Shown here: positions 6,317 to 55,078 of the stretch, in pieces
Layout: the number at the start of each line of letters is the position of its first letter
How positions within the stretch are numbered: position 1 is the stretch's first letter
From: Siderastrea radians
Taxonomy: Eukaryota; Cnidaria; Anthozoa; Scleractinia; Rhizangiidae
Direction: 5' to 3'
NCBI GenBank assembly: GCA_964017195.1
Contig: OZ024889.1
Span: 62,693,858 to 62,757,857, forward strand
Length of the DNA stretch: 64,000 nt
Notes under the pieces: generated by a model
What the model saw: the letters and a program-made list of their open reading frames with translations, nothing else
Database searches by the model: none
What the model was told of the DNA's origin: nothing
Position numbers and translations under genes: made by a program

Positions 6317-7964
6317 ATGGCGGCAGAAGGTGAAAGCGGTGTGCTCGTGAGAAGAAGAAGCAAACAGCGAAGCGATGCGTCGTCTCATGATGTGTCTCAC
6401 AAAAGTTATTCAGAAGTCTTAGATAAATCTCCAAGAATCATGTTCTTGACAGAAAGGTCTCTATTTTTCGTGCTGCTGTTCTTCAGAATCTTCAATGCCT
6501 CTCTCATCAAAACATTTTTTGTCCCGGACGAATTCTGGCAAGGACCAGAAATTGCGCACAAAATTGTATTCGGCTATGGATATTTAACATGGGAATGGAA
6601 AGAAGGTCTCAGAGGCTGGACTTCGCCCCTAACAATTGCAGCAAGTTATAAACTTTTAGCCGTGTTTGGACTGGATTCTGCAAAGGCCCTGATCGTGGGT
6701 CCCAGACTGGTTCAATCGTTCTTTGCTGCCTTTGGAGATTTGTTTCTGTACAAACTGGCCGTGAAAAGATTTGATCACCAAACTGGTGGCTGGACACTCA
6801 TCTGCCACTTAATGTCCTGGTTTACATTTTACAGTGTTACTAGAACTTTGACAAATTCTTTGGAAACTGTCCTCATCACAATAGCTTTATATTACTGGCC
6901 TTACGACACCAAAAAAGAAATTAATACCTGGCAAATCATCAAAGCTCTTAGTTTTGCAGCTTTTTCTTGCATTATCAGACCAACAGCTGCTACTGTTTGG
7001 ATACCATTATGCACATGGTATTTATTTTCAACACCAAACAAGTTAGCATTCATATTGAAGTGTATTGTCCCAGTGGGATGTTTCGCCACGCTATGGTCAC
7101 TAGTAGTGAACAGTTGGTTTTACAGAAAATGGACTCTTGTGGAACTCAACTTTGTGAAGTTCAATGTTGTTAATGACATGGGAACATTTTATGGAAGTCA
7201 CCCTTGGCACTGGTAGGTTAATCACTGTTAGATTAAATAATTTCCATTCAAATTAATCATTGAAAATTGATGAGTTTATAATCTTCATTGACAGGTCATC
7301 AATTTCGGATATAAAAAAATTGTTAATGATGTTGATTATTATTGATTGATGTTGATTGTCATGAATTATGCATTAGTCATGAATATGCTGATACTGATTG
7401 TCATGAATTATCAATTTTCATTAATTCGTCAGGCCAGGTTGAATGCATTAATTTCCAAGTGGGATCAAGTGCCAGTTACATTCACTGTCTATGGCACATG
7501 CAACTTTACATTCCCACAAACATACTTTGTACGTCCTTGAGGACACACTATATCAAGATTCCCCTTACATGTAGTTTGTATGTAATGGCTTGACTGTGTT
7601 TCTCACCTTCAGGTATTTCACCCAAGGCTTTCCTGTTGTCATGTTTTCTCACATGATTCCTTTCATTGGTGGCCTCTTCAAAGCTGTGCCAGGTCAGCGC
7701 ACATTAGCATGGCTTATCTTGTGGACCATTTCTATCTACAGGTTTGTGAGTATAAAAATCGAAAACAAATATCTTTATAATAATGCCACCAAAGTGGAGA
7801 TGAATAGTGATGGATATTGTCCAAGCCATGCAGCAGCGAGGGAAATGTCTACCACTCTTTACCAACACTGAGGTGAATAGTGGTGGATATTGGCCAAGCC
7901 ATGCAGCAGCGAGGGAAATATCTACCACTATTTACCAACACTGAGGTGAATAACTGTTTTAGTG

Positions 7965-8015
<51 letters not shown>

Positions 8016-11000
8016 TGAATAATAATATTAAGGGTAATAATAATAATAACTTTATTTACATGTCTCATCTTCTAGCATCTTCAATGAAGTAGCTAATTGG
8101 GGACACCTAACTAGATTACATTACAAAAGTATAAGTATATGACTAACTAACTATCTACATTAAAATATGAGTATACGATAAAATCTTTATAAAACTAACA
8201 GTTTTAAAATGAGTCATACATGGTGAAGAAGATCAGCACCAAAATCAGAAACTAGTTATTGTATACCAAACCAGTGGATAGCCAGCACCAAATAGTTCCT
8301 TTTTTCCGAGAGAAGAGGAAAAACTCGCGCGTGAAATCCGGAAAAATGCCAGGAGGTGAATAGCAGAAACTATCCTGAGTTTGAGTAGCCAATCAGAGCG
8401 CACGAAAAACACTATCCACTGGTTTGGTATGCTAAATACAGTGGAACCCCATCAATCCAGCCACTAAAGAGACTGCCCTGGCTTGACCACTGGAAAAGAG
8501 TAAGATAACATTGATGACAGAACAAAAAGAACATTAGCAAAAGCAACCTCACCCAAGAAAGAAATGATGGAAATGACAAACTGAGTTGTATTGAAGTGAT
8601 GATGAGTTTGAACCACAACAAACATCAAGTTGCCCTTTTTCTTCACACTGCACTGTACAGCAAATGCAGGAATTTCGTGTGCGTGTATTTATTTGAGTGT
8701 CTGTTTGAAGTGGTTTTTTCATAATGAAAACTGTTACTTGGGCTTAACCATATGTGGCTACACCGTTGGCTGGGTGGCCAGATATACATGTAAGGTACTT
8801 TGCCCAGAAAGACGATTGAGAATTTGTTCAGATAAAATAAGGTAGCTGCAATATTAAATAAAAAAGTAGCCATAGTTTTGTTTAATAGGGTGGCCGAAAA
8901 GGAGGTGCCACTACTGGGGAGAGTTGAAAACACTGACCCCCGGTCCGCGGACTACCCACTGACCCCGACTCCGCGGACTACCCTATGGACTACTCCGCGG
9001 ACTACCCTCAATAATCAACCAAATTTACTTTTACCTACCTGAGCTACCTACGCGATTGTAAACACCGAGCCACCATCTTGATTTTGCCCATTTCCTCAAC
9101 CCAGTCCTTCTTATTGCAACCTAACTTCGCGCCCAGTACTTCTCGATCCTCCATCTAGGAGACTTCTAGGTGAGTTGTATTCAAAAATGGCAACTTCCAA
9201 AGTTGGCGACTTCCAAAATTGGCTTCGTTTCCTGCCATGGTAGTCTCCTATGCAGCCGTTTTTAGTGGCGTCACGCAACGCTCTCCCCACCGCTAAAAAC
9301 GGCAACGTAGGAGACTACTGCTGTGGGTGTTGGGCTATAAATTTTTAAGGTGGACATCGATTGACTGATTTTATGAAATATGAGCTGTCATTGGCTGGCA
9401 CGTATTTCACGAGGGACTGATAATATCGCTGATGTCATCCATCATGCAGTGAGAACTATATGCAAGAGCAAGACCCACGGGTCAATCTTAAACACTCTTT
9501 TATTATTGTTTTTTTTGTCATTTATTAAAAAATGTGGAATGAAACTTACAGTGCAAGATGTTGCTTATAGCCTCGAACTGTTATCTGGTATACATGCTGG
9601 CTAACACTTACTCATGTTAACAGTAAGGTTTAAAAGAGCTGCTTTTTAGCAAATGTTAATGTCGACGGCAAACATTTGAAAAGTGTTAAAAAGATTAATA
9701 TTCACCTAACACTTACCGAACATCCACCGCCATGTTGAAGAATGGGCCGAGACTGAAAAAAGACTGGGTCGAGGAAACGGGCGAATAGATAGCAAGATGG
9801 GTGCTGTTTATGACTGCGTAGGTAGCGCAGGTAGGTTTGTTGTATCTCTTTCCCCCATAAAAGTAAATTTGGTTGATTATTGAGGGTAGTCCGCAGGGGT
9901 AGTCGGCGGAGTCAGGGTCAGTGGGTAGTCCACGGACTGGGGGTCAGTGTTTTTAACTCTCCCGCCACTACTGTGGTTAAGTATTTCATATTTTATATTC
10001 AACAGCTTTCTTGGCCATAAAGAATTTAGGTTCATTTTTCCAGTGGTTCCTTTGGCAATGTGCTACTGTGGTCTTTTTCTAAGCTCCTTTTCTGAGCCTC
10101 ACTTGAGTAAACACCAAAGCACTAATCAAGGTGTCCTTCAAACTGGATGGAAAGCAAAACTACTAGTGATGTTTTTGGTTTTAACTAATGTCCCATTGGC
10201 TCTGTACACCAGCACTGTTCATCAGAGAGGAACTGTTGATGTTATGGCTTACATTCAAGTTGAAAGTGCAAAGCTAAAAAGAAATAATGACATGTCAGTT
10301 TTATTTCTGATGCCATGCCATTCAACACCATTTTACAGGTAATTAAATGTTTGTTTCAACTGTCATTTATTTCTTGGACACATTTTGCAGTGACATGGAA
10401 ACACATCACTGTAAATACATGTATTTGTCAGTTTTTATTTTTCCTTAAACCTAATATAGAACATGGAGTTGGTGCCCATCAACTGAAAAAATAACACAGC
10501 CTAATGTACAAACAATGAGGATGACTTTGTGATAACTTGAAAGTGCTAGAGTGCTTGCATTGGGCTTAATCATAGTCGGTGCTGGTTTTTAAACATAAAA
10601 TTCAAGGAGTATTCAAGGAGTATTTCACCCAGCATGCAACAGGGCAGGTTTTGCAAAATCTGTCCCCGATTTTGAAATCTGCGCTCAATCCCTGAATTAC
10701 TTTGATACAATCCTATATTATTTCCCATCCAAACAAAAATTCAAGGAGTTTTCATTATTTTCAAGCACTTTCATCACTGAAAAATTCTTCTCTTCAAGGG
10801 CTTTTCAAGCACCCTTGAAATCTAAAATCAAATTCCAGGGCTTTTCAAGGACTTCAATGAGTAGCACAAATTAATTAATGTGAAATCTCAACAGTTTTAA
10901 GGAAAAATTATATGTGAAAAATAATGTCTTCACTATGTTTTTAGATTACAGTAACTGCTCTAACTTGTAGTTACTGCTAGCTGAGGAAGCACCCAATTAT

Positions 11001-33065: not shown

Positions 33066-36000
33066 AGGACCAAAAGAACGTGTGTTACAACGGCTTGCAG
33101 CGGACATAACGTCCGCTGATATGCGATGGAGTTTGTTTATTTCAGCCTTGGAAAGCTACAGACATGATAGCATCTTGAGACCCTTTCCTTCTGCATATGT
33201 AGAGGATGGTGTTAACAAGAATTTTCAGGCGCTGGTGAGTGCTGGTTAAAGAGAAAGAAGCGGTGTGTTGTAGTACAATGGCAGTACCATTGCCACTGGC
33301 TCAAAGTTTTTAATTTTGTTAGTTTTCAAAATTTTTTTGTCATCTTTCCTTGTGAAGTGGCCATTAAAAAGAAAGAAGAGTGAGGGGCAGAGTTGTCAAG
33401 TTTTATGTTCACACTTGTCACTCCTCTTGGATTTGATTGGTCAGGTGAAAGAGAACCCATCAAAAGGCTGGAAAACCCCCCAACTACCCCTCCCCTAACC
33501 CAACATTTTTTACTTATTATCACTTAGAGCAAAATTTTGGGTTAGGGGAGGGGTAGGTGGAGGGTTTCCCAGAAACGTGGAATGATCCCATAATACTTTG
33601 TGAAAGTGGCAGTGGCAGTGGGATGGTGCATAGCACTATAAGATGGTATGATGTACATGTAAGTGCAATCAAGTCACATGCAGACTACCGGTGGTCCAAA
33701 TCATGGTACTTTAACTCTGCTTTTATTGACACTTAGCAGCCTGGCCCCTGTTGTTCAAAAAGCAGATAACACAATCCACCAGGCTCCAGTTGTTCAAAAG
33801 TCAGATAGTGCTATCCACCAGATAAATCTCTATCCAGTGGATAATGCAATTGGTTTCCTTAACACTTACCGGTATCCACTGGATAGTGATTTATCCCGTG
33901 GATAGCGCTATCCAACTTTTGAACAACTGGGGCCAGATAAAATAGTGATTTATCCGTTGGATAGTGCTATCCAACTTTTGAACAACTGGGGCCAGGAGAA
34001 TAAGTACCAAACTTGCTTTGAATAGGATACTAGTCTGTCACAGGAGTATCATCCAGCGGCACATTGTGAGGTCTCTTTATAACTGTTGCACCTCATTAAA
34101 ACTGTGTCTGTCTCCAAGGATATTCATGATTCTTAAGGGTTTGATAGGGATGAAAATATCTTGGCTGTCACGGAAAGCTGGACAGGCTCTTTTATTGAGG
34201 AGAAAGTGTTAAATTAAATCTGTGTCAGGATGCGGAAACAAAACCAGCAAATATGACAACCCCAGATGATCAACCCACTCCAATCCAAAGTGGAATCTGG
34301 ATGAGGATTGACGTCTTGATTGGTTATGCCTTCAATTCAATCATTCTGCTCATCATTGCTGTTTGTGTATAAGGATACAAAAGAAATATTCTCTATCTCT
34401 GTATAACTAATTATAGCAATATGGGAATTTTTTTAGGCTCAAGCATGCAAAACAGTTCCTTCTTTTGACAAACTGTTGAAAGGAAAATACATTATTTCTC
34501 AAGAAGCATGGGAAATACTGGATTGGTCATTAGACAGGACATTTATTCTGAAATCTGTTGACAAGTCCAAGGTGAGCCATTTTGTAATTATCTGCATTCA
34601 CTTGACTTCTTGCCCATGGTCTTTTAAAACCTTTCATTAAGGATCAAAGTGAGTTTTTGGTTATAATTTTTACCTGATGGTTGAGGCAAAATAAATCAAA
34701 GACCAGCAAAATCCCTTTGTACAACCTTTAAGGGAAGATGGCTGCTTAATATCAAGGCAAAGATTTATGACTTTCTTATGACAACACTGAAAAGTTAGGA
34801 TTGCTGAATTGATGTTATTATACTAATCAAGAAAACATCCAAGTAGACAAGTGATTTAAAATTCCAGCTTCCTGCTCTTTTATTTCACCTATCATCACTT
34901 GTTCATTCATTTTTTTCCTTCTCTTTTTCTCTCAAGTATGTGTTTAGAATGTGTGTTTAGATGGAATGCAATTCTTCAAGTAATGGGTACATAGACATTT
35001 CCTCTCCTTCAACTTGTGACTCTGCCTATTTTCAATCTATTTTCAAGGTTGGGGATGCTGTAATCATTATTACCAGTTGTTTTAAATAAACTTTGTTGTT
35101 GTTGTTGTTGTTGTGAACTTTCTGATTTAAATACATGTCTGGTATTTTCTGGTTATAAGGCACACTCGGCCCTCTGTGACCCTATTACCATTGTGGCAAA
35201 GCGAAATATTGATGTCATTAAAGATGTTTATTGTTCATTGTGGTGTAAGATAGGCAAGATGAATGTTTATTCGTTTGTCTCACGATGGAATCGCTTTGAG
35301 TTGTTCATCACAACATTTCGACTGCAATACTGCTAGTCTTCATCAGGCATGTAGCATGTTGGTTTGCTGCTATTGGTGCATTTCGATCCTCCTTATTATT
35401 TGGACTATTAGATGTTGTTCCCTCACAGGTCTGCTTTGTGGTTGATCGGCTGTTGTGCTTTCTGATCGTAGTATCCTAGCTTCAGGAATTTTGATTCCAC
35501 TATCTCTATTGATGTTATTAGGATGAAGTCTTATATGGATAGCCTCTTTGACCCTACGTGTGTACCAGTGAGGGTTACAATCAATAAACTTAACTTCTTT
35601 CCAAATAGGAAGATGCCCCATTTCGTTAGCTTGCTCCGAAACTGCGGAGGTTTGCATAAGAGCCGTATATCTGTGTCGTGTTCTTTTATCCTGTCTTACA
35701 TCGCTCTCCCTGTTTCCCCGATGTATACTTTGCCGCACTCGCATGGAATCTTATAGACGACACCGTCTTGTTTAGTTGGTTCAAGGGCGTCTCTTTCGGT
35801 CGCACTAAGTGAGACCTAAGAGTTGTGTCTGATTTGAAGACAGTGCGTACGCCTTGTTGTTGTAGGCAGCGGTGAAGAACCACTGATACACCTTTTATGT
35901 AGGGTAGAACCGCAGTAGATTTAAATTCCTGTGTAGGTTCTTTGTTGGCTGTTGGTCTTGTTGTCTTTGTGAGCTTTCGTACAAATGAAGAAGGATATCC

Positions 36001-37258
36001 GTTTGAAACAAGTACAGATGATAAATGTTTCTTTTCTTCAGAGATAGCTGATGGTTTTGATGTGAGGTGTTTGGCTCGGTCGTATAGACACTTAACAATA
36101 CCACGTTTCACTGACTGAGGATGGTGTGAATCACAGCCTAGGTATTGGTCAGTGTGGGTGGGCTTTCTGTAAACAGTGGTGGTGAGAAGACCGTTTGAAT
36201 CCCTTGAAACTGACATGTCGAGAAAGGGGATAGTGTTATCTTTCTCGATTTCCATGGTAAAACGAATAGTAGGCTGTTGACTGTTTAGATATTGTAAAAA
36301 GCCATCTACATAGTCTTTACCTAAGACTGTAAAAGTGTCATCTACATATCGCTTCAGATCTTAGGTTTATAGGTCGCTGTTGCTATTGCCCATTCCTCAA
36401 ACTCTTCCATGTAAAGGTTAGCAATAACCGCGGAGACAGGGCTCCCCATGGCTGCTCCGTCTTTCCGTTCGTAAATCGACCCGTTGTATTGGAAATACGT
36501 TGATCTTAAGACGAAGTTTAAAAGGTCGGCAATTTGTGTAGGTGTAAGGTATGTGTGGTCGGCAAGACCAGGATTGTTCTCTAGTTTGCATAATGCAGCC
36601 TTTACGGCACCTTCAATTGGCACATTTGTAAATAACGATTCCACATCGAAAGATACCAATAGTCGGAATAATGAGGATCGAAATGCCCCAATAGCAGCGA
36701 ACCAACCTGCAACAAATAGCGACACGTAAACAATCGACCTCATCGCCTGATGAAGACTAGCAGTGTTGCAGTCGAAACGTTGCAATCAACAACTCAAAGT
36801 GATTCCATTGTGAGACAAACAAATAAACGTTCATCTTGCAAAATATTGATGTTGCTGAACCACCATACCTAAAAAATCAATAACCAATTTTTCTCTTTTG
36901 TTAAAGCCTAATCATAATGAAAAATCATAATCTTTAGAATTTGTACCCAGAAAATATTTGTCTATAAAACATACCCCGAGTTTAGTGATAACTTTTTGAC
37001 AGAAATACTGATTTTGAGAAAAAAGGGTGCACCTTATAACCTAAAAGATATGGTACCACAGTAGTCTTGCAAAGATGAATTCCCACCCCACACCCATTTG
37101 TAAGCTCTTGATTACTACTATTTCAAGAATTTCCAATTTCCATTTCCATTTCAAATTAGTATCAGTATTAGTTAGGTTCTTTTCATCTGCATAATAATTG
37201 TAAGAGCACTGAGACTCTGTGTGAGTACCCCTAAAGCTGAATAATAATAATAATAATA

Positions 37259-42121: not shown

Positions 42122-45100
42122 TTAAGTTTTCCTGCCATTGAGAAAATCTTCCGTACGTTTCCACACTTCCAGTTTTTGAATTAGCCCGTCCACGAGTCCC
42201 AGTTTTGGTCGAAAAATGTCCACAATCAGGACAACTCTATCTTTCTCAGCGCCATTGCGAGCGGAATGCTCAAAGGTGTCATCGAACAATATCCCTTTCC
42301 CCTCCCTCCACGGTACATCGACGCCATCTACGGTGAGCCACGAGTGCTTGCCGTGGTCTGGTACAATCAGCGCGAGGTGGTAGCGAAGAATAGACGCGGT
42401 TGAGCCGCAGTGAGGTGGAATAGATCCCCCTGCTTTCAGAAGCGAGAAGGCAGCGTTTTGGACTTCAGGAAGCTTTGTAAGTATTGATAGTGACACGGGA
42501 AAGAAAGGCTTCACCTCGTCTATAGGTTTACCGTAACCCAAGATCATCGCCAACTTCCATTTGCTTTCTTTATTGAGCTCGTCTCCGCCAGTTGTACGAA
42601 CGTTACACATTCCAGCACCGTTTTTCACGAAGGACAACAGCTCATCTCGAATCGCTTCCCAGTTGGCTTCCAATTCGCTTAACCATGGAAACGTTTGGAG
42701 ATGATTCTTGAACACGGCTATCAATTAAAACAAATTACGTGTTAAGGATATAGCTTTTCACTTTCTTCAATAAAAAGCTTCATAATTTTTCTACATGGAC
42801 TTTTATCTTTGTTAACTTAAAGTAATAAGAAAAAGTCAGAGAGATATTTGGAACAAGGAATTATCAAAATTACGTGCCAGATGTGTCCATCTCAATCTGC
42901 ATGAACTTCCTTTAATCTGTCTAAGAGGGGGGCGTAAGGGTTTGGGTGATCCGTTATTGCGTTATTTTTGGTGCGGTATTGCGGTAATTTTAATTTTAAA
43001 GTACGGTATTGCGGTTTTACAAGACTAAGCGGTTTGCGGTTTCTAAAAATTTTGGGCCACGGTAATCGGTCAAAAAAAAGTAACTGCGGTGATACGGACG
43101 ATACATTTTCACGCGGATCCTCTAGTTTCCGGTGTTTTGTTTTAAATTTTTACAAGGTATTTCGAGCTACACAGCAGTCGGTGACCACCAATGTGCAAAT
43201 ACCCGCAAATAAGCATTGTGGTTTGTGATTTCAACCTTTTCCAGTTAATGCTTGATACTATTAACCGTTTTATCCAATGATATGTCGACAATGTTGCATA
43301 GCTTTCCAGACTGGAAGTCTTCGGCTCAAATATCTTTATCTACACTTTCACGAGCGTGACGATGTCCGAGGCCAGCGAGGAGCATATTGTCATAAATTGC
43401 GTCGCTATTTTCTACGAGGAGGGAAAAGGAGGTGAAAATTTCCGAAGGAAAAACAAATTCCGTTGCAGGACGTCACTGGTATCAAAACAACCTTCAATGG
43501 ACCTCAAGGGCATGTGTCGGCAAGGACCAGACAAGGACAGTGGCATCAGTTGCCATGATAGACACAGGTCTACAAAGACTGTATGCTAACCTGGAAAAAA
43601 TTGTTTACAAGCACACACATTTGTTGAGCTGTAGGACATTAGATGTGGAAAATTGTCATTCTACCGTACATGTAAAGCAGGCAAACATGTCAAAGGCAGA
43701 GTACTGCAGGTCATTCGGCTTAGCAATGAAGGAGGCGGTGAACCCGGGGGTGAAGCGTGTTACCACTTGGGCAGCTTATTATCACACAAGCAGACGATCT
43801 TGGTATCCCAAACCAGAGGGAGGTTTGTTGCTATCGCAGGTTCCTGTCATGAAACCTCTACCAATTGTCAATATGTCTCCAGCCGACTGCAATGCTCTTA
43901 GAAACTGGGCGTCCTCTTGGGGCTGCCGTAAGACAACAAACGGTACGCAAAGAGACCACCATGGCACGTCATGGCACACTCCCAGAATTTATGTACCAAA
44001 GGCAACGCGACATCTCAGATAAGCCTGTCTCCCTTGCCTTTGACGAGCAGGTCAATACAGCAGACGCTGCCGCTGCCGCTGCCTCCCCCACTGCCGAATT
44101 GGACGACGACGAAGCAGACAAATATGATGAAAGCAGCGATGAAGAAGTTGAAGTTCGTCCGGTGTCACAGCGGATTCGGACCCCCGGTCCAAATCCGCTA
44201 GCGGATATGGACCCCCTCTCGCGGATTTGGACCCCCTTCAATAAGGCAATAATTTCATTTTGAAACGACAAGTTTTGAGAAGAAGGTCTTCTGTCTCTTG
44301 AACGTTTTTAGAACGAGGAATGTACATCTTAATTTTGGTTTCAAGCGCGGCAGCTTTTCAATAAATTAGCTTTTATGCTTCTACGTATAGCACAGTAATC
44401 TTTTGCTTACAATTACCTTGTTCTAAAACCCAACAGAAATAGCTTGCTGACAAGGCTGAAGAGCGAAAGATACGTTTCGATGGTTTATATACAAATAGCC
44501 AGATTTTCTGTTGAAGTTATCTGGTAGCGTAAGGTTTTACAGGGGTTCCACCGGAGGGTCCCATTCTGAGGGGGTCCAAATCCACTAGGACACTGGACGA
44601 TTCCACTTTGCTCCAAGGAGAGATTGGAAGCTCTGTGATGTTTCTCCTGGGAGCAAGAACTCGCTTCGGAAGAGTTGTCCGTTTCAATAATCGTCTGCTC
44701 TACTAAACACTCTATCAGACTGGTTACGTTGACTTGACTTCCAGTTTTAAGAATTCAGTCTTGGAAAGACATTGAATGAAATTTAATGTTGATTGGAGAT
44801 GCAAACAAGAACAAGTGGGTGTCCCAAGCTTGTTTTTGGAATATTAGAGGTTGAAAACTATCTCTAAAATTGACGAATTTTAACAGAAAAATTACGAAAA
44901 GCATGCTTGGTACAAAATTTGAACGGTTTGCCATGTGGAAGTTATAAATGTTGAGGTCTCTTCGATACCGAAATTTTACCGACGTTACGGTCAGCAGTGT
45001 TCAAGCGTGTGTGTGCACACAGAGTTCCACAGATTAAGCCCAACGTGGTTGGTGCAACTTCGAGACCTTCACCGACGCAGAACTTAGTTAATTATTAGTG

Positions 45101-45986
45101 TCACGCAAAGTCATGGAATTTGTCGATACTCTTCAGAGTACATGATCCAGATACCAGCATTAAGGTTAACACTACAATACTTCTATTATGTAACGAGCTC
45201 AATGATCGTACGTTTGATTAACGTCAACATATTTATTTCTTATGGAATGGCCCAAGTAAAGACTCGATAACGGGAACTTAGCCTACACATTTGAAACTGC
45301 GGTTTCGGTATTTTGGTCAATTTCAATGCGGTATTCGGCGGTATTTATACGTTTTTTTTGTGCGGTTTTGCGGTTTTCGGACCCCCCTTACGCCCCCCTC
45401 GTCTAAGTATTCCAGGAAAGTTATCGCTATTTAGTTTAGTGTGCCAAGAAATCCAATATGTGAGGAGAAAACTCATCAGTAATTTAACCACCGTGGAAGT
45501 CGACAGTTTGGGTGTTTAATTTTAACGGTTGAAAAGTACGCATCGTACAATTTCCAGAGATTTGTATCTTCTAAGGTTACAAGCCCACATTTATAAACTT
45601 CTTGTGACTTCAACTTTACCTCGATTCTGTTCACAAATTATACTTCCGGGTGATGAAAGTCAATCTCGGTCCTGTTGAATAAGTCTACACACAGTGACGT
45701 ATTTTTAGTCTACCCCTTTCAGTATGCGTCTAATAATTTTCAACCCTTTTTCTCTGATTTTTTGTCTATATGTAGCGTTACGAGTCAGTCAGTTGTTAGG
45801 TGCAAGAGAAAGCATACCTGGGCGGTGTTTGTCGGCTGTTATTCGCCGGTAGAAAACGTCGATTATGTTGTTGAGAGGCGATCGAATGAGACGTTTCCAT
45901 GTTTTCTTGTAGACTAGCAGAAAGATGGCTAAGAAAATACATAAGGCGCAAGACAAGACGAAAAGAAACGACATCGTCGCTGACAT
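42122..45986 (-). CDS. Membrane-anchored aspartyl/asparaginyl beta-hydroxylase-domain protein, two exons
   Basis: Fe(II)/2-oxoglutarate oxygenase of the Asp/Asn beta-hydroxylase fold. Minus-strand exons are 45818-45986 and 42122-42717. The first ends in phase 1 and joins as G/CC (Ala57), giving 254 aa. Residues 7-26 form one hydrophobic helix followed by KKTWKR. The catalytic part shows IPPHCGSTASILRYHLAL with His170, the HLA triplet where human ASPH has HLG (an acid is missing in both), FDDTFEHSARN with His207, and Arg217 in DRVVLIVDIFRP as the probable 2-oxoglutarate-binding Arg. It lacks the TPR and EGF-like parts of animal ASPH and resembles compact bacterial-type members. The uncharged N-terminus and basic residues after the helix suggest a cytosolic catalytic domain. 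It is divergent from precursor A. An upstream in-frame Met at 46052 is possible. Confidence 0.85.
42926..45400 (+). mobile_element. 2.5 kb DNA element with captured or decayed coding sequence
   Basis: The ends AGGGGGGCGTAAGGGTTTGG and TCGGACCCCCCTTACGCCCC are inverted, and GTCTAAG flanks both (42919-42925, 45401-45407). Subterminal TGCGGTATTGCGGT repeats occur on both sides. The plus strand holds frames at 43432-44022 and 43865-44263 that overlap and look like one protein broken by frameshifts: AYYHTSRRSWYPKPEGG and PADCNALRNWASSWG in one frame, then AVRQQTVRKETTMARHGTLP and an acidic Ala-rich tail in the next. I do not recognise the family. It sits in the intron of the hydroxylase-domain gene. 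Confidence 0.75.
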
Positions 45987-47449
45987 GTTTCTGAGAACTG
46001 ACGTCGAATTGAGCAATTCAAATCTAAAAGCTAATCGAAACCGAAAACCCAAATAACTGAAATAATTTCAGCTCATTGGCTCTTTATAAGTCTGTCAATC
46101 CAAAAGTCACGAGTTGACTTAACTGAAGAGTCCACTGTCAGTTCTACAAAAAATATTCATAGAGGAAGTCGGCCTATGAGGGGAATTATTGAAAGGAGAG
46201 TGGTTAATTAAGCTGTATTTTGACTAAACAGTAAACACTGAGAGAAGTCACTACTATCTATTTCCTCTTTTACGAAAAAACTGGGCGATTGTTGTGGCTT
46301 ATCAGGGCCTAGCGTCAAATTAAAATCTATGTGGTTTCCTTTTAGTCTAACTTGCCATATGTTTTCTTGTGATGAGCTTGTTTAACTTTTGTTGTTACTC
46401 GTTGAAACTGAATTGAACGTTTTCTTCAAAATTCAAAGACGGTAGCTTTCGAAATAATCGGTTTTATGTCTATGATTCTCAACTTTCTCTTGAAAATGAC
46501 CGGAAGCTTTCTTTCGAAACTGAACTGATATTCAAGATTGACATCCTTATGTGTCAAATATTGACGTTGTTTCTAGGAAAGCAGTTGACTGGGACGAGCT
46601 TGTTTCGAGTCTGTAACGATTGACCCGTCAATTCCTGTACCTACCAGTTGTTACGAAGTCAAGAAAACTGTAAACAATGTAACGCGCGGGTTAAATATCA
46701 TAAAATAACATGATAATATTGTGTTTGCTATAGCTGCTGTAAAAACAGGTTAAAATATTCCCAAGGAAAACTTGTGACCAGACAAGGACCTGTAACGCCC
46801 ACGTGTTTCAGCCACAAGGATATTTGTAAACACTGTAACGTACACGCAATGCCAGGAATGGCAGCTTTTGGATAAGTTCAATCGTGCGATCTGATTGGCT
46901 CCTTGCCACTGGAATATCAGCGTATATCTTACTAATAGAGGAGCTGCCCGCGTAAATTGTGGAAATCAATATTCTTTAATTTTTGCCTCTCTTTCGGATT
47001 AAACTTATTTACGTCCAAATTTCGTGGAATTTTTGTAAACTGCATGTGATGACAAGCCAGACCGCAAGATAATCTTGGTTTGGGGATGGCTGACGAAAGC
47101 AGATTTAGATATTTTCAAGAAAAAATAGCTCATGACGCTTGTTCATACATGCCAAGAACTGCCAAGAGCTAACAAAACTGACCAATCAGTTGCGAGAAGT
47201 TTTAGATGACAAGTCGTGCTTTTGAAGTGGGTGCGTTATTCTGTTGAGGAATATCGAGACGAAACAACGGAAAGTTAAATCTACTGTACATCGAAGGGAC
47301 ATCTGTAATTGGACGTAAGTAAACGATTTCTCTGTTACTTCAAGAAGTTTCTGTTCTTTAATTTAAAGCATAATCTAAAAACTTCGTTTTTAACACTTAT
47401 GCGCTTACTGTTCAGTTGCTTTATCGAAACTGCTTTCTTGCCTTATAGA
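45987..47449. promoter_or_regulatory. Divergent intergenic region, hydroxylase gene and precursor A
   Basis: No coding exon seen. A likely non-coding first exon of precursor A ends with the donor GGAC/GTAAGT at 47314/47315. The coding exon acceptor TTATAG ends at 47448. Promoters of both genes should lie here. Confidence 0.45.
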
Positions 47450-48240
47450 ATGGAAGCCGTCAAGCCTTCACGTGTAGTCTCTGAGAAACGCAGTGTTCCA
47501 CAAGAAAAAACCACAGGTATAAGAAAAAACTCGTTCTATCTATTTTCACTGTAACACACGTAGTTCAGAAAGACTTATTCTTCGATTGGTGGGGAAAAAA
47601 GGTTGTGACGCATCAATTCTACTATACGCTGTTGGGTAGTCAAAGCGAGTTTCTTCAGAAATGTCAGATATCGTATGCATTAGGAAAGTAAAAGAACTAG
47701 AACTAGAAATTCACTGATATAATTTCACATATAAGGAAAGTTAGCACCTATTTAGCGATTTCTTCTGGGTTACGGCTGATGTTGCGTAGTTCAATTTTAC
47801 TTCGAACTAAAAGATGCTTTGCTAAGCAGATTCATTCGCCCCTGTCTTACCAGTGTCCATTTGCAGTTAACTAATCTGCCGGAACTATCTTCAGTTTACT
47901 TCTTTATAGTTGCCTTTTTCTCACAATAAAATAAATAATTTGCTAACTTTCATTAGCGTCAGTTATGTACGTATTCATTGACTAAAAAATCTCTGCATTT
48001 TAGATGAAAGCCATTCGTTGGCATTCAAACCCAGTTTCACATCCGGGGAATTAAAGCTAATTCACTGACGGTTTCTTTGGTTGTTTGTTTTCAGCTCCGC
48101 TCTCCTGTGCTGCTGAGATGCGGGCCTTGCCAGCTGCTTTTTCACTGGCTGAACCGATGAAGGATCCGGGCAATCAAATGCCGACGGCCTCTTACACCTT
48201 TGGGAAGGATGCGAATTCTTACAGCGATTGGGACTGGTAA
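47450..48240 (+). CDS. Precursor A: candidate RiPP (graspetide-like) precursor peptide
   Basis: Coding exons 47450-47516 (67 nt, phase 1) and 48095-48240 give a 70-aa peptide. Residues 1-22 (MEAVKPSRVVSEKRSVPQEK plus TT) form a basic leader. The second exon begins APLSCAAEMRALPAAFSL (residues 23-40), shared almost exactly with precursor B. The tail, residues 51-70, holds TASYTFGKDA and ends SYSDWDW. It has Thr/Ser and Lys on one side and three Asp on the other, the side chains that graspetide ligases join. Microviridin cores, as I recall them, also end in SDW plus acidic residues and an aromatic. There is no signal peptide. It lies between the hydroxylase gene (divergent) and the ATP-grasp gene (convergent). 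An alternative is a small structural or regulatory peptide unrelated to the ligase. Confidence 0.72.
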
Positions 48241-48330
48241 ACAAATCTGCCAGACACGTTTGACAGCAGCCGAGTGAAGACCGAAGACTTATTTTTGCTG
48301 TTATGATTGAAGCTGGTGTTGTCTCAGTGA

Positions 48331-48336
48331 AATAAA
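48331..48336 (+). terminator. Poly(A) signal of precursor A
   Basis: AATAAA, 91 bp after the stop codon, in the run CTCAGTGAAATAAAGTTT. The same sequence is kept in the decayed copy downstream. Confidence 0.7.
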
Positions 48337-48583
48337 GTTTTGTGTGATTAAAAGAATTTTGTGTTGTTTCCAAAAGAGGCGGCATTGTTCTGCCTATTCC
48401 GAGCAAACTGAAAACATTCCCAAAACAACGCAATCCTGCGCATGCCAATTCTCGAACCGAATGCTTTAAACATCAAAAGAAACCTAAGCTATGTATTCTG
48501 GGTAAACCAAAACAACGCAATTCTACCTATTTCAGTCGAACAAACCTTTTTCCGTTGTTTCTGTTATCAGGAACACAATGAAC

Positions 48584-48899
48584 AGTTAACTAATCTGCCG
48601 GAACTATCTTCAGTTTACTTCTTTATAGAAGTACAAGTAACTCTTACAAGTAAGTTGTAAGAGGCCCACGGCCTCTTACAACTTTTTTGGACGGATGCGA
48701 CTGATTCTTACAGAGATTGGGACACATGACTTAACCAGCCCGACACGTATGATTTAAGAACGAGAAGTTTACTTGCTTTTGATTATTGCAAACTCTTAGA
48801 AAGATTATCGAAACCATGCAGCCGGACACGTATGACAGCATCCGTATGATGACAGAAGATTTATGACTCTGCATGCTGTTATGATTTCAGTGAAATAAA
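48584..48899 (+). pseudogene. Decayed duplicate of precursor A
   Basis: 48584-48628 repeats precursor A intron positions 47865-47909 without a mismatch. 48665-48728 then matches the core-coding end (CCCACGGCCTCTTACA..., GGATGCGA..ATTCTTACAG.GATTGGGAC), and 48829-48899 matches the 3' UTR including AATAAA. The leader-block exon part (PLSCAAE...) is missing, and a small length change shifts the frame. In the shifted frame the end reads TDATDSYRDWDT followed by a stop. Confidence 0.75.
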
Positions 48900-49407
48900 C
48901 GTTTAGTCTTGTCAAAATCACAAAAAGTGTCTCTTTATTCCCTTTTTAATTCAAAATATTTTTTGAAAATAAAAGAACTGAAATGGTCGCTTCAACATGA
49001 GATATGCAGCCTTTTGAAGCATTTTCACCTTGGGCGCAAACTTTCGGGACTATTCTGGCCTCGATACACGGAACATCAATTCCCCCCGCCCCCAGTCAAG
49101 TCTCCTAGGATCACAGATGTGTAAGCAAATCGTGCCGGATTAAGCTCCTTTATTTCCATTTTTTCCAGCAAACAAAACTTCATGATGAAAACGGTTTGAA
49201 ATAATAGAAAACTCAGTACACACATTAAAGAGCCATAGAGGAGTACAGTTGGCTAAAATGGGACGAAATACTAACTGAAGTGGACTGCAAAATTGGTAAC
49301 GTAATCTTAGCCCAGTCAATGAGGATTTATATTGTGAAAAGGCCTTTTAACGATCAGAGCTTGTTCACGTTTTTATGCCTGAGTAACTGTTTATTTCATA
49401 ACATGTT
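48900..49407. other. Convergent intergenic region
   Basis: Lies between the decayed precursor copy and the 3' end of the ATP-grasp gene. No gene seen. AATAAA on the minus strand at 49390-49395 may serve the ATP-grasp transcript. Confidence 0.4.
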
Positions 49408-52400
49408 CTATGAGTTACATTCACTCTTAATGGCTGACGAAGAATCTGCTTCATCTCTGTCCAGAAGATAAAGAGCGACGTGCTTCGATACCTTCAGACC
49501 AAGACTTTCTTCTAACCACAGCCAGGCTCCTCCCGGATTACACTCCAGGAATATGACGTCATCTCCTCGCTCTAAGAAATCATAAGCACCAAATACCAGA
49601 CCAGCCCTCTCATGGAATTCTAGCAATCGCTCTTTAACTTGTTCAGATATCTGGAGAGAAAGCCAAAGTCAACCAAGTCTCTGAGCTTTGAAGAAAACGC
49701 CAACCGATTGGGGTAACTGTATCTTATCCTGCAGGTTAGCAGACAAGATTACACAAGAACAAGATTACTCTTCACCCTGACTGGTCGGCTCTCTAAGCGG
49801 ACCAATTGGGTTTGCAACCTGCCAGATTAGGCGTTTGTATTGGCCAAAAGTACTTAGAATACAATTGAACGAAGGAATGAGGGCTGTTTGAATGCGACCC
49901 CGAAACTAGGCAGAAGTAATTCTAAATTCGGTCATCAAAAACTGCATGTCGAGCTTATTTCTTCAGAATAACTGTTATAACTACAGTCCGTACCTGTGCC
50001 TCACTGTAAAGCTCTTCTTTGTCTTGACATCGTCTCCAATCCAAGCGATCTTTCTGCTCATCGAGAATCTGCGAGGCAATGCGAGCGACAAACACCCTGC
50101 GGCCAACAACAGTGATGCGCAAATCCGATTGCCTCTCTACCAGCTCCTGATAAATAGCCGGGCACCGAGTAATACTGTCTCGGGACGCCGATGGAAATTC
50201 TTTTGTTATCTCAGTAGTATAAAGCAGCTTGTTCGGGGGAAGGAAAAGCGGCGTCAAACTCTTGAATATCACTCGTCCATGATCCACTTCGTCGAAGATT
50301 TTCTCTACCGCTGCCGGGTTGTTTGTGATGGTGGTTTTTGGCACAGTCAGCCCAACTTGCTGCGCGAGTCTTAACTGATGTGGTTTGCAGTTCAGCAGTT
50401 CCGAGGCAGCCAAGGGGTTCAACCATCGAGCGTGGGATAGGTACGATGATAGCGAACGAATCACCAACTTCCATTCTTTCAAGGCAAAGTCTTTAGCAAT
50501 GAGACCTTGGAGAGGGGTAAAAATTACTCATGATTTTCAGTTAAGTATAGTATTGAAGGGATGTTACTAAAACGAGGAACGGGGAACGGGGAACGGGGAA
50601 CGGGGAACGGGGAATGGGGAATGGGGAATGGGGAATGGGGAATGGGGAATGGGGAATGGGGAATGGGGAATGGGGAATGGGGAATGGGGAATGGGGAATG
50701 GGGAATGGGGAATGGGGAATGGGGAATGGGGAATGGGGAATGGAGAATGGAGAATGGAGAATGGAGAATGGGGAATGGGGAATGGGGAATGGGGAATGGC
50801 AAATCGGGAATCGGGAATCGGGAATCGAGAATCGGGAATGGGGAATGGGAAAATGAAAATGGGAAATTAAAAATGGGAGGTGAGAGATGAGAAGATCATG
50901 AGGTCAGTGGTAATTATCAAAAATCCCTTTCTTGAAATCTAGGGGATAGAAAATATTATTTCCCACTTTTCGCACGCTAATTTACTTTATGACAAGGTGA
51001 GAGCTCACTGGCGGTGATAAGTGTTGAATATAAAATTCCCGAGGTTTATTGCCACTACAGGAAAGTGATGGTTTTGAGAGGGATGGAAACGAGTGGTAAC
51101 ACAAGGCACGACTACGATGAGAATGGTAGAGGAGCCGTAGAGTTTTGAATTCTGACGCGAGCTCGCGGGCAGTCGTGGCCGATATTCATATTATCGGGAT
51201 GATATGTTGTCTGTGACAAGCAAGGCCCGTACGCGAAGGTAAAAGTAACCTTAAATTTGATTAAGTTAACTGCTTTCAATTTCAAAACTTTTTGGTTTGG
51301 GAATAGAAAAAAATTCCAGTGATACCGGATTGAAATTCAAAATGAAAATGGGAAAATTAAAAATGGGGAATTGCAAATTTGAAATTAGAATGTCTGATGA
51401 ATAAATTTTGCTCGCTTCTACGACATTTCTGTAACAACTACACCATGACACAGATAAAATGACTTTAAAAATTATTGGAACCATTCAACGTCCTTCAAAT
51501 TATTAGCCTTAAAATCATACAAAGTACAAAAGCGTCGCCTTGAAGCTTCGTGAGCCTGAGCGCCTTCCGTTCGACCGCAATAACCTGAAATCGAACCGAA
51601 ACGATCGTAAATTTCTCTGGTGACAATTTAAGATGGAAAGCATACTGAATTATTGGAAGAAATTAAAGTGAAAAAGTAAGAAATATTGAGAAAATTGGGC
51701 ATACTTCACAAGTTACGCTTTCACGCTTTCATAATTCCGGGAAACGCCAATATAGTAGAGAAATTTCTAGAAAAAAAAAGTTTTTGAAAATTTGAGTCTT
51801 TCAAAGGAGTGTTCTATTTCTGCTTGATTTATCATTTTCTAATGACACTCAGACAGGAAGTGTTTTTGAGGAAAAGGGAAACTTTTGAATCGATTTTTTT
51901 GAAGGGTGCTCTCAACCGAGACATGTACTTCATTCTTTGAAAATAAATTAAAATTTTACAATTTTGGGTTAAATTTGAGGGCACCCAGGTGCGATTATCT
52001 TACAAAAAAAGGTTTTTTGATAATTACCACTGACCTCACTATCTTCTCATTTCTCACCTCCCACTTTTAATCTCCCATTTTCATTTTCCCATTCCCCATT
52101 CCCCATTCCCCATTCCCCATTCCCCATTCCCCATTCCCCATTCCCCATTCCCCATTCCCCATTCCCCAATCCTCCTTTTATAACATCCAGTATTGAAAAT
52201 TATGCTGGCATTTGTGCTTACTGTTTCTAAATACATACATGGCCAGAGAGGTTTACTCATAGAGAAACGAAGCTCACAACAGGACTTCTCAAAGGCGTAA
52301 AGATAACAATTTATATGGAAATTTTTTTGTTTGTGGTTTTAGGAAATGAACAACAACGATGACCATCCCAGTGTTTTTACTTGCAATACACTTCAACTGC

Positions 52401-52988
52401 ACTGAATGTTCAGTGGCATCCCCCCCCCGGGGGGTGCTCTAAGAACGTTCATGTGCGAGGGGGGCTACAACCCGAGGTTCAAACCATTACCTTTCACGTC
52501 ATAACTTGTATCGCAATAGTAGCCCTCTCATATACTCAGACAACAATTGTCCCCTTTCAAGATCAGTACACCTGCGTTTTTTCCCGGACTTTCAGTCGCT
52601 CTTGGTGCAAAGTAATGGCTGATATTGGTAGTGAACATTTTTGACATGGAATAATTTTAAGAAGCAGACACAGAATCACACTCAAAAATTTGAACATAAC
52701 ACGTAAAATCCTACCTTGGAGATCTTCATCAGCCGATAAAAAGGCCGGTTTCCAGCGATACCAGACAGATTTGATCGCGTCCGCAGGGATACGCTCGCCA
52801 TCCACAACAACAAGGCAGCTAGGACTACGCTCGGAGACATTTCCTGCGGTGATTTCGATAAAATGACCTCCACAAAGAGGGTTGAAGAGTACAACTCTAG
52901 CCTCACTATCCAGCGATTTAACATGTTTGCTGACTTCTTGAATGTGCGGGTCCTCTTCGCTTCCAATACCTAGAATTATGTTTGCCAT
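49408..52988 (-). CDS. ATP-grasp peptide ligase, MvdC/MvdD (graspetide) type, three exons
   Basis: Minus-strand exons 52715-52988, 49994-50505 and 49408-49650 join with matching phases (Q/G at residues 91/92, phase 0 at 262/263) into 342 aa, the usual size for this family. The pre-ATP-grasp part has SVWYRWKP (74-81). The linker has [20 protein letters not shown] and [13 protein letters not shown] (about 121-155). The central part has VIFKSL (Lys173), [15 protein letters not shown] (220-234) and LDWRR (246-250). The end has GAYDF and [15 protein letters not shown] (297-311) with the metal-binding E-x-N. These are the landmarks of enzymes that make omega-ester or omega-amide rings in microviridins and other graspetides. 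No organelle signal is seen. Precursor B is divergent at 809 bp. An alternative is a RimK-like ligase with another substrate. Confidence 0.88.
50573..50935. repeat. (GGGGAAT)n minisatellite with flank, intron 1 of the ATP-grasp gene
   Basis: Roughly 35-40 units of 7 bp, grading from GGGGAAC through GGGGAAT to GGAGAAT and CGGGAAT, then a unique flank AATGGGAGGTGAGAGATGAG to 50935. The repetitive Gly-Asn-Glu-Trp and Pro-Phe-Pro-Ile frames on either strand come from the repeat and are not genes. Confidence 0.95.
52013..52170. repeat. Inverted partner of the minisatellite
   Basis: GATAATTACCACTGACCTCA, then TCATTTCTCACCTCCCA, then about 11 CATTCCC units. It is the reverse complement of 50800-50930 in the same intron, so the intron RNA could fold on itself. 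Confidence 0.85.
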
Positions 52989-53797
52989 AATCTTCGAAAA
53001 GTCTTAGACGAACAGACAAAACGTTTTGAAATTCAGTGGTAAAACTCCGTTACGCAAATTCTTACAAAGCGTGTATTGTTGGTAAGCTGGAAATTTCTAA
53101 GAAAACTGACGCAATTACAACCCAACAATGAAAACAACTCGGAAACAAATCAGTTTCTCGTATCAAGTAAGACGCGGAAACAACTGAAACAATTTGAAAG
53201 TAAAATTTGTATGTTGAGACGCACAAACTAGGATAAATAATTGTTTCCAATGATTGCAGCTGTCGTTGGTTAGGGATCATTGATCTCAGTAATAGCGAAA
53301 TTCAGTGAATCGTTACAAAATGGAACATAACTCGTTACAACCAGTTTAACCCGAAACTGAAAGCTATTGAGTTATCAAAACATTTCTCAGTAACGCCAGA
53401 TGCAGAGAACATTCCGAATTTATTCAGAAGGTTACCGTAGTTTTGCTCCGTGACTTGTCGCGTGGTCGTAATTTGCCGTAATCCATGTTATTCACAAAAA
53501 AGCTCAGACAACGTCGAGATCACTTTTTAAAGCTCCTGTTGTTGTAAATTTTATCGTTTTAGAAATTTACAAGAAAGTATTTCAGCCGCTGTGAAACGCT
53601 TGTGCATGTTTTAAACTAAAGGCTGTACCATGGGATAGGGAAAAAACCTCACAACTGACAGTTACTGTGGCAACAAAACATAAAGTTCGCCTTAATTTGA
53701 ATAAATATCCTGGAAGCGTCCTTACCACTTCATTGACTTCAAAGTCGTTTGGAACTCACTCACTCGACAGACATTGTTACAAGATCAGCAATCGAGA
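52989..53797. promoter_or_regulatory. Divergent promoter region, ATP-grasp gene and precursor B
   Basis: 809 bp between the two start codons. No coding exon or transposon is visible, unlike most of the window. It is a reasonable place for shared regulatory sites; no specific element is recognised. Confidence 0.5.
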
Positions 53798-55078
53798 ATG
53801 TCTTCTTCGGACAAGGTACGCCATTTAACTTTCAATTTTTTATGCCGGAATACACTTATTTTGCTTAATCTCCACGTTTTAATAATTACTGATTGATGAT
53901 CGGTGTTTTGTTGTAGATTGTGCTCCAAAAGTCTGATAGCAAGCGTCCAACAGCGGCTAAAAACCCCAAGGAAAATGCCAAAGGTAACAAGAATCTCGTT
54001 TGATTAAGGCTGAAGAAATTACTGCTAATTGCATCTCTCTTGTAAATGAGGTTTTCATTTCAAGATCTTCTCGGCCTGGTGTCTCCTCAGAGACCTCTTG
54101 TCATGTACGTTCTAAGACTCAGTTATTTCGCCTGTGTAAGCACATGTTTGGTTGCCACAAAAAACCGCGCAGAAAAGACATGATTTTGGTCTCGTACAAG
54201 GCCGTCAGAAATTACTACTGTTAAGTTCAACAAGAGTCAAGGGAACGGGTTACGTTTTGAAAGAAAGCTGAGCAGTAATCCTGTAAATAACCTCAGAAAG
54301 TTCTCAGTTTCCAATCTTGTCCTGAAACGAAGCCGATACCTGTTTCATAGAACTAGAAGAAGCAAACTATTCAGTGTTCTGTTTCAACTAAGCGATGACT
54401 GATGCATTGAAACTTATTCAACAGCGCACACAACTACCTTTTATAAGTAGTTTTCATGTTTGAATTGGAATAGAGTTTCTCTTAAGTTTCCGAAAACAAA
54501 CAACATACTCAGAAGTTTAATAATAGACTACTTGAACGTGTTGAAAAATTACTTCGGAACTGATCTGAGAAATAGTTAAGGGATCCAGCACAAACCCGGA
54601 GCAACATTTTCGAGAAAAGACTTGCACTACTCTTCATGATGAAGTAATTCTCCAAATCCACTTTTTGAAGTTGACGTGACTAATGTTGCATGAATGATGA
54701 ATCCTTCGGTGAAATTTTGGCAGCCGGCACCTTCGCTGTTCCTTGCTAGATAGGAGGATTGAGGTGGGGTAACTTTCCAGTTCTCCCTAACAATCACATC
54801 ATATCTCTCCCCAATTAAGGCAAATCTTTAACATTACTTCAAAGCAAATATGCCTATATAGCGTACTTAGGAGACTACCCCCGCCTCCATCTTTCAAAAG
54901 AGAGCATCGTGATTCATCGCCCGCAATCACTGATTTTCTTGGTTGATTTTCAGTTCCACTATCATGCGCAGCCGAGGTGCGTAATTTGCCTGCTGCCTTC
55001 TCACTGGTGGATACGGTGACTGATCCAGAATTTCATCTGATAACAGCGTCGCACACTTTTATGGAACAGGGGGATTGA
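53798..55078 (+). CDS. Precursor B: candidate RiPP (graspetide-like) precursor peptide
   Basis: Exons 53798-53815, 53917-53983 and 54954-55078 join in phase into 69 aa. Exon 1 gives MSSSDK. Exon 2 gives a Lys-rich leader (IVLQKSDSKRPTAAKNPKEN plus AK) and is 67 nt ending in phase 1, the same length and phase as the coding part of the precursor A leader exon. Exon 3 opens with VPLSCAAEVRNLPAAFSLVD, matching 14 of 16 residues of the precursor A block, and ends ITASHTFMEQGD. TAS.TF is shared with precursor A, after which the two tails differ completely. This conserved-leader, variable-core pattern is expected of RiPP precursors. No signal peptide. It is divergent from the ATP-grasp gene. AATAAA lies at 55195-55200. 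Confidence 0.72.

Follow-up and report, generated by a model that had tools for sequence, protein, structure and literature searches.

A graspetide-synthetase-type ligase beside two predicted precursor peptides in the genome of the coral Siderastrea radians

Can an animal genome encode both a graspetide synthetase and its substrates? Graspetides are described as bacterial and archaeal products (PMC8939145, PMC13418204; papers are cited here for the passages in point), and our search of the open-licence literature on eukaryotic, animal, coral and anemone graspetides or ribosomally synthesized and post-translationally modified peptides found no eukaryotic graspetide, which is not proof of absence. 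The question is raised by region 42122..55078 of a 64,000-nucleotide (nt) stretch of the coral Siderastrea radians (GCA_964017195.1, OZ024889.1 positions 62,693,858 to 62,757,857; hereafter the window, whose coordinates are used throughout and whose sequence contains zero N). Here, a graspetide-synthetase-type ATP-grasp ligase lies close to two small peptide genes and a gene with an Asp/Asn beta-hydroxylase domain. We consider it probable that the locus represents an animal graspetide-synthetase-type ligase, likely of bacterial descent, beside two predicted precursors.

Gene models of the locus

The region comprises the following features.

49408..52988, minus strand: graspetide-synthetase-type ATP-grasp ligase, 342 amino acids (aa), three exons (52988-52715, 50505-49994, 49650-49408), open frame with GT/AG introns
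47450..48240, plus strand: predicted precursor peptide 1, 70 aa, tail MPTASYTFGKDANSYSDWDW, exons 47450-47516 and 48095-48240
48097..48147, plus strand: conserved block of peptide 1, PLSCAAEMRALPAAFSL, predicted leader (ligase-recognition) part, based on the family alignment and the motif Phhx(1,2)h of PMC8939145
53798..55078, plus strand: predicted precursor peptide 2, 69 aa, tail LITASHTFMEQGD, exons 53798-53815, 53917-53983 and 54954-55078
54956..55006, plus strand: conserved block of peptide 2, PLSCAAEVRNLPAAFSL, predicted leader part, based on the family alignment
42122..45986, minus strand: PF05118 Asp/Asn beta-hydroxylase-domain gene, 254 aa, exon 1 45986-45818 (membrane anchor), exon 2 42717-42122
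48583..48886, plus strand: decayed third peptide copy, blastn pieces 100%, 76% and 77% identical to peptide 1

An initial annotation of this DNA had proposed an intron-containing MvdC/MvdD-type ligase, two paralogous peptides of about 70 aa with a conserved block and a variable tail, a decayed third copy, a compact hydroxylase and an arrangement in two divergent enzyme/peptide pairs. The gene models bear out the ligase, whose introns measure 2.2 kb and 0.34 kb, as well as the peptides, which have PLSCAAE-[MV]R-[AN]-LPAAFSL in common. They likewise agree on the third copy, which corresponds to peptide 1 from the end of its intron through the tail exon into its 3' part, no blastn piece covering the PLSCAAE block, and on the divergent pairs, in which 1,464 bp separate the start codons of hydroxylase and peptide 1 and 810 bp those of ligase and peptide 2. 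For the hydroxylase, the domain assignment stood but the single open reading frame (ORF) at 42122-42724 did not: it is exon 2 of a two-exon gene, the first exon of which was traced through the intron-free relatives P0153, P0156, P0161 and P0166.

Public intron-free ORFs on short contigs cross the predicted junctions uninterrupted. The ligase junctions are spanned by P0001 (337 aa, 1,855-bp contig) and P0002 (330 aa, 1,180 bp), that of peptide 1 by P0121 (70 aa, 96% identical, 1,074-bp contig) and that of the hydroxylase by P0153 (254 aa, 2,314-bp contig); P0128 does the same for the peptide 2 type. Such uninterrupted ORFs in relatives would be consistent with spliced transcripts, although an intronless copy would give the same picture.

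Two introns carry further sequence. In ligase intron 1 (50568-52180), inverted arms of approximately 170 nt (50766-50937 and 52000-52171) are 90% complementary, with 39 copies of a GGAATGG satellite on one side and 12 of its reverse, CCCATTC, on the other, at a spacing of 1.1 kb; the arrangement resembles a mobile element that ends in satellite sequence. The 3.1-kb hydroxylase intron (42718-45817) contains ORFs that are possibly mobile-element sequence, and the tested ORF at 43432-44022 had no Pfam match.

Family and origin of the ligase

The best profile and structure matches of the ligase were graspetide synthetases. The NCBIfam profile MvdC matched it with E 7.6e-49, and for a confident structural model of its relative P0001, the nine best PDB entries (six enzymes) were all graspetide synthetases, with RimK as the next-best fold. 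The catalytic and substrate-binding columns [DE]xR, DWR and E.N (metal site) are kept in 7/7 coral-type rows of the alignment; the columns are measured, and the roles are those we assume for these residues. Judged by its sequence, the window ligase is of graspetide-synthetase type with intact catalytic residues. We weighed whether it could still be a decaying relic without function, accompanied by expressed but unmodified peptides. One peptide copy in the window is decayed and the Actinia-type ligase paralogues P0046 and P0050 lack catalytic residues, whereas the columns are intact in every coral-type row and several coral-type paralogues are still open frames, and we hold a relic to be very unlikely.

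Among the 120 of 152 ligase matches listed, the nearest named relatives come from Acropora millepora, A. muricata, A. cervicornis, Porites lutea, Actinostola sp. and Actinia tenebrosa, and those named outside animals are bacterial. In a tree of 63 rows, drawn with a midpoint root for display only, all 18 animal-labelled rows fall into one group with support of 100/100 and a long branch of its own; these rows are the window, 6 named sequences and 11 assigned by similarity only, and the remaining 45 have bacterial names or none. The named relatives in Acropora, Porites and anemones, together with this single animal clade, identify the ligase as an animal gene. The nearest bacterial branch sits at an unsettled fork (81/86). 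The simplest reading would be a single acquisition from bacteria with later duplication in anthozoans.

Bacterial contamination or misassembly, a concern of the initial annotation, could also have placed bacterial genes in an animal contig, and the named non-animal relatives, among the matches listed, are indeed bacterial. However, all four genes contain introns, relatives in Acropora and Porites, with 77% identity, lie on contigs of 34-37 Mb, and the animal clade has its own long branch. We rejected contamination because of the introns and the named anthozoan relatives on such large contigs, and regard its chance as close to nil. No relative of the peptides or the ligase was found among viral contigs, and a plasmid search returned 76 records, all below 60% identity (the 20 listed at 27-37%).

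Within the animal clade, ligases of three Acropora species (P0003, P0033 and P0034) occupy three distinct branches, so the family has probably expanded in corals. P0007, labelled as from the anemone Actinostola, lies inside the coral-type group beside Porites and apart from the Actinia-type paralogues, which reflects either ancient paralogy or an error in labelling. According to the alignment, P0046 and P0050 have lost parts of the active site, as have, by eye, P0052 and P0053; these Actinia-type paralogues are possibly dead or repurposed enzymes.

The peptide family and the bacterial loci

Both window peptides have divergent N termini, followed by the common block and a tail whose acidic residues lie towards the end. 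A profile of the two retrieved 31 database relatives at E up to 10. Only four of these carry names, all of corals (Porites lobata, Porites evermanni and Oculina patagonica) and none bacterial; the Oculina patagonica relatives are two genes with tags three numbers apart, in the interval ACROYT_G001671-001674. The 33 aligned members all keep the P, both A and the L of PAAF-L, and the tails vary in length and letters (for example TASYTFGKDANSYSDWDW, TATYTYTNTFGSFADHDMDG and TASHTFMEQGD). The mean Ser/Thr position precedes the mean Asp/Glu position in 22 of 23 distinct tails, P0132 being the exception, in a comparison that left out P0126, P0145 and the first ten tail residues. A shuffle test gave 0/5000, a figure that overstates the evidence because the 23 tails are related and were treated as independent. 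As far as sequence can tell, a constant block followed by a tail with Ser/Thr mostly before Asp/Glu is a graspetide layout. Structure prediction of the peptide yielded a predicted local distance difference test score of 58 and no structure, and a clear hydrophobic stretch is absent from the N terminus of both peptides. In P0132, a Porites evermanni gene model, the leader block LPAAFSLAEPM is present twice, through either tandem exons or annotation fusion.

The leader motif Phhx(1,2)h occurs in about half of the known graspetide precursors (PMC8939145). It is matched here by PAAFSL. A graspetide core has Ser/Thr/Lys donors and Asp/Glu acceptors, the donors usually preceding, which agrees with the order of Ser/Thr and Asp/Glu in 22 of the 23 tails. 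A precursor rule that combines the published motif with a Ser/Thr-then-acid end picked 3 of 1,270 window ORFs, two of which are the peptides, and 28/33 coral family members.

For comparison, we took the 80 best of 546 matching bacterial stretches from one scan with a ligase profile led by P0045. The 11 closest loci (L001-L011; Alphaproteobacteria, Sporosarcina and Bacteroidota) encode ligases 35-41% identical to P0045, and in all 11 an ORF ends at most 160 bp before the ligase start or overlaps it (L010 is cut at the contig end). By eye, every one of these upstream ORFs is Thr/Ser-rich and then Asp-rich towards its end (for example L006, ...IPFGLQFREPANLVAADLTATGSGTVTWLDTDADVDG), and coral LPAAFSLAEP resembles bacterial IPFGLQFREP. 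The leader motif is found in nine of them, L002 and L004 lacking the Pro, and the precursor rule picked 59 of 13,631 bacterial ORFs, including the upstream ORF of 9/11 closest loci. A scan of 25 bacterial loci for LP..[FYW].L picked zero upstream precursors. The alphaproteobacterial precursors at L005 570-1001 and L006 2529-3005 have a long extra N-terminal leader, and the ORF downstream of the L006 ligase has what we take to be a radical-SAM-like Cys motif.

Several observations weigh against a ligase with its own precursors. The ligase scores 166 bits where the NCBIfam cut-off for MvdC is 425, and the Pfam cut-offs are likewise not reached. The leader motif is short and permissive, and the tails were already known when the core half of the rule was formulated; the rule selects 50 further bacterial ORFs as well, and it misses P0126, P0138, P0142, P0144 and P0145. 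Against 2,207 window ORFs, a 13-sequence profile of bacterial precursors ranked the two peptides 21 and 527, and a 7-sequence profile 557 and 239. In the other direction, the coral profile placed the upstream ORFs at rank 424 or worse among 16,700 bacterial ORFs (5/11 listed); none was among its best 25 matches listed, although L006 2599-2892 overlaps a precursor in another frame. Because the profile searches failed in both directions, homology between coral and bacterial precursors is not supported. Finally, the ligase and a peptide were seen to adjoin in this window only, and no other assembly was seen with both on one contig.

The last two points would also fit a real animal graspetide-type enzyme with another substrate, the PLSCAAE peptides being unrelated small cytosolic proteins that are its neighbours by chance, as would the next-best fold matches, RimK, which act on another protein (RpsF, from the PDB titles). 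This explanation leaves aside the leader-like block and the Ser/Thr-then-Asp/Glu tail across the peptide family, the similar layout beside the nearest bacterial ligases, and hydroxylase relatives on equal-sized contigs once with a ligase relative and once with a peptide relative (below). We judge it unlikely and favour an animal ligase with its own precursors, as the initial annotation had proposed. This reading is strengthened by the relatives in other corals, the single animal clade of the ligase, its fold and catalytic residues, the peptide family with its graspetide layout and the comparable arrangement at the closest bacterial ligases. Ligase relatives with such peptides nearby, which that annotation suggested looking for in other cnidarians, were not seen outside this window.

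Hydroxylase, proposed pathway and known systems

The hydroxylase matches PF05118 over the whole domain (E 8.4e-37) and has an N-terminal membrane anchor in exon 1 (19-residue mean hydropathy 3.1). Two His and one Arg align with residues of AspH that we assume to be catalytic there. Relatives of the hydroxylase and the ligase occur on equal-sized contigs (1,586,560: P0028 and P0173), as do relatives of the hydroxylase and the peptides (2,500,839: P0146, P0155 and P0177); we infer that each set shares one contig, in two other assemblies. The 80 bacterial ligase loci, with 5,651 ORFs of at least 60 aa, yielded no PF05118 relative, while the same profile recovered the window hydroxylase, as positive control, at 5.8e-80, and linkage is thus the sole sign of pathway membership. 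A role of the hydroxylase in the peptide pathway is uncertain, and it may act elsewhere.

With only slightly less than an even chance, the ligase and peptides would form an animal graspetide pair, with the hydroxylase as an unrelated neighbour such as an OlsC/LpxO-like lipid hydroxylase, an explanation compatible with our preferred one. The NCBIfam matches of the hydroxylase to the lipid hydroxylases OlsC (5.3e-32) and LpxO (3.1e-27), both below cut-off, point this way, as do its membrane anchor and the lack of relatives in the bacterial loci. By contrast, its head-to-head position with peptide 1, the equal-sized contigs and the 2-oxoglutarate (2OG) oxygenase that tailors the graspetide corallotide in Corallococcus (PMC13097080) argue for a connection.

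If the ligase does act on these peptides, it would bind the constant block SCAAE-R-LPAAFSL, which would play the role of the microviridin leader PFFARFL. That leader motif binds the ligase and is required for the onset of catalysis, and the authors suppose the same for other leaders (PMC8939145). With ATP, the ligase would phosphorylate Asp/Glu side chains of the tail, to be attacked by upstream Thr/Ser side chains; graspetide synthetases phosphorylate the carboxylate and guide the nucleophile to the acyl phosphate (PMC13097080). The product would contain side-chain esters (amides if Lys is used) and the tail would fold as a stapled hairpin. For peptide 1, the expected rings are T57-D67 and S55-D69 (residue numbers), with D61 as a further candidate; the alternation in T-x-[ST]-x-T and D-x-D would fit nested rings across facing strands of a hairpin. 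Because the ligase and both peptides have no obvious signal peptide or membrane segment, a cytosolic reaction would be expected, as in bacteria. The membrane-anchored hydroxylase might then hydroxylate the product, or be a neighbour with another role. A first guess at the biological role is serine-protease inhibition, as for microviridins and plesiocin (PMC13097080).

A broader proposal, which we see as evenly poised between right and wrong, is that hexacorals took the whole stapling pathway from bacteria: a spliced synthetase, cytosolic precursors whose T-x-[ST]-x-T ... D-x-D tails diversify behind an unchanging leader, and an oxygenase in the membrane for hydroxylation of the hairpins, giving the first animal graspetides. 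With an animal-encoded ligase and precursors, graspetide chemistry would extend to animals, and corals themselves, not only their microbes, would make such peptides. Reef corals would hold a genome-encoded library of side-chain-cross-linked peptides, the first such pathway known to be animal-encoded.

Elsewhere in the window, exons of an Alg9-like mannosyltransferase (PF03901) lie at 6317-10342 and resemble PIG-B. ORFs at 35370-36785 look, by motifs we take to be diagnostic, like reverse-transcriptase remnants; two were tested and had no Pfam match. No tRNA genes were found in the window.

Among known systems, that of microviridin (MdnB/MdnC or MvdC/MvdD) resembles the window in ligase family, fold and catalytic residues, in a small precursor, predicted in the window, adjoining the ligase, in a leader with a Pro-hydrophobic motif, and in Ser/Thr donors with Asp/Glu acceptors. 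It differs in that the window has animal, spliced genes and one ligase instead of two, and in leader sequence, core motif and expected rings. The 11 closest bacterial loci share the ligase family, the leader motif in nine cases and, by eye, the tail order, but their precursors have no profile-detectable homology to the coral peptides and no hydroxylase was found in the 80 loci. Human AspH and bacterial LpxO/OlsC belong with the window hydroxylase to the PF05118 family, although the latter is a compact protein whose match to AspH is confined to the catalytic part. What appears new here is the combination of known enzyme chemistry with a new kind of host and a precursor family for which the tested bacterial precursors gave no sequence match.

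Corallotide also brings together a graspetide ligase and a 2OG-type oxygenase (PMC13097080). Its oxygenase, however, is a divergent 2OG-Fe(II) enzyme that hydroxylates a cyclized Lys, whereas that of the window is a membrane-anchored PF05118 protein, and its precursor is unusually large with five repeated motifs (PMC13097080). Conotoxins carry an endoplasmic reticulum signal (PMC6514808), unlike the window peptides with their N termini free of a clear hydrophobic stretch. The stryphnines, knottins of a sponge, contain a side-chain ester between Ser and Glu; they are animal peptides with a linkage such as graspetide synthetases produce, but on a knottin scaffold, and their authors state that no grasp enzyme was found in the transcriptome of the sponge (PMC13418204, in the passages cited). 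The coral locus bears on this ester by naming a candidate animal enzyme and candidate substrates, a pairing that is directly testable in E. coli.

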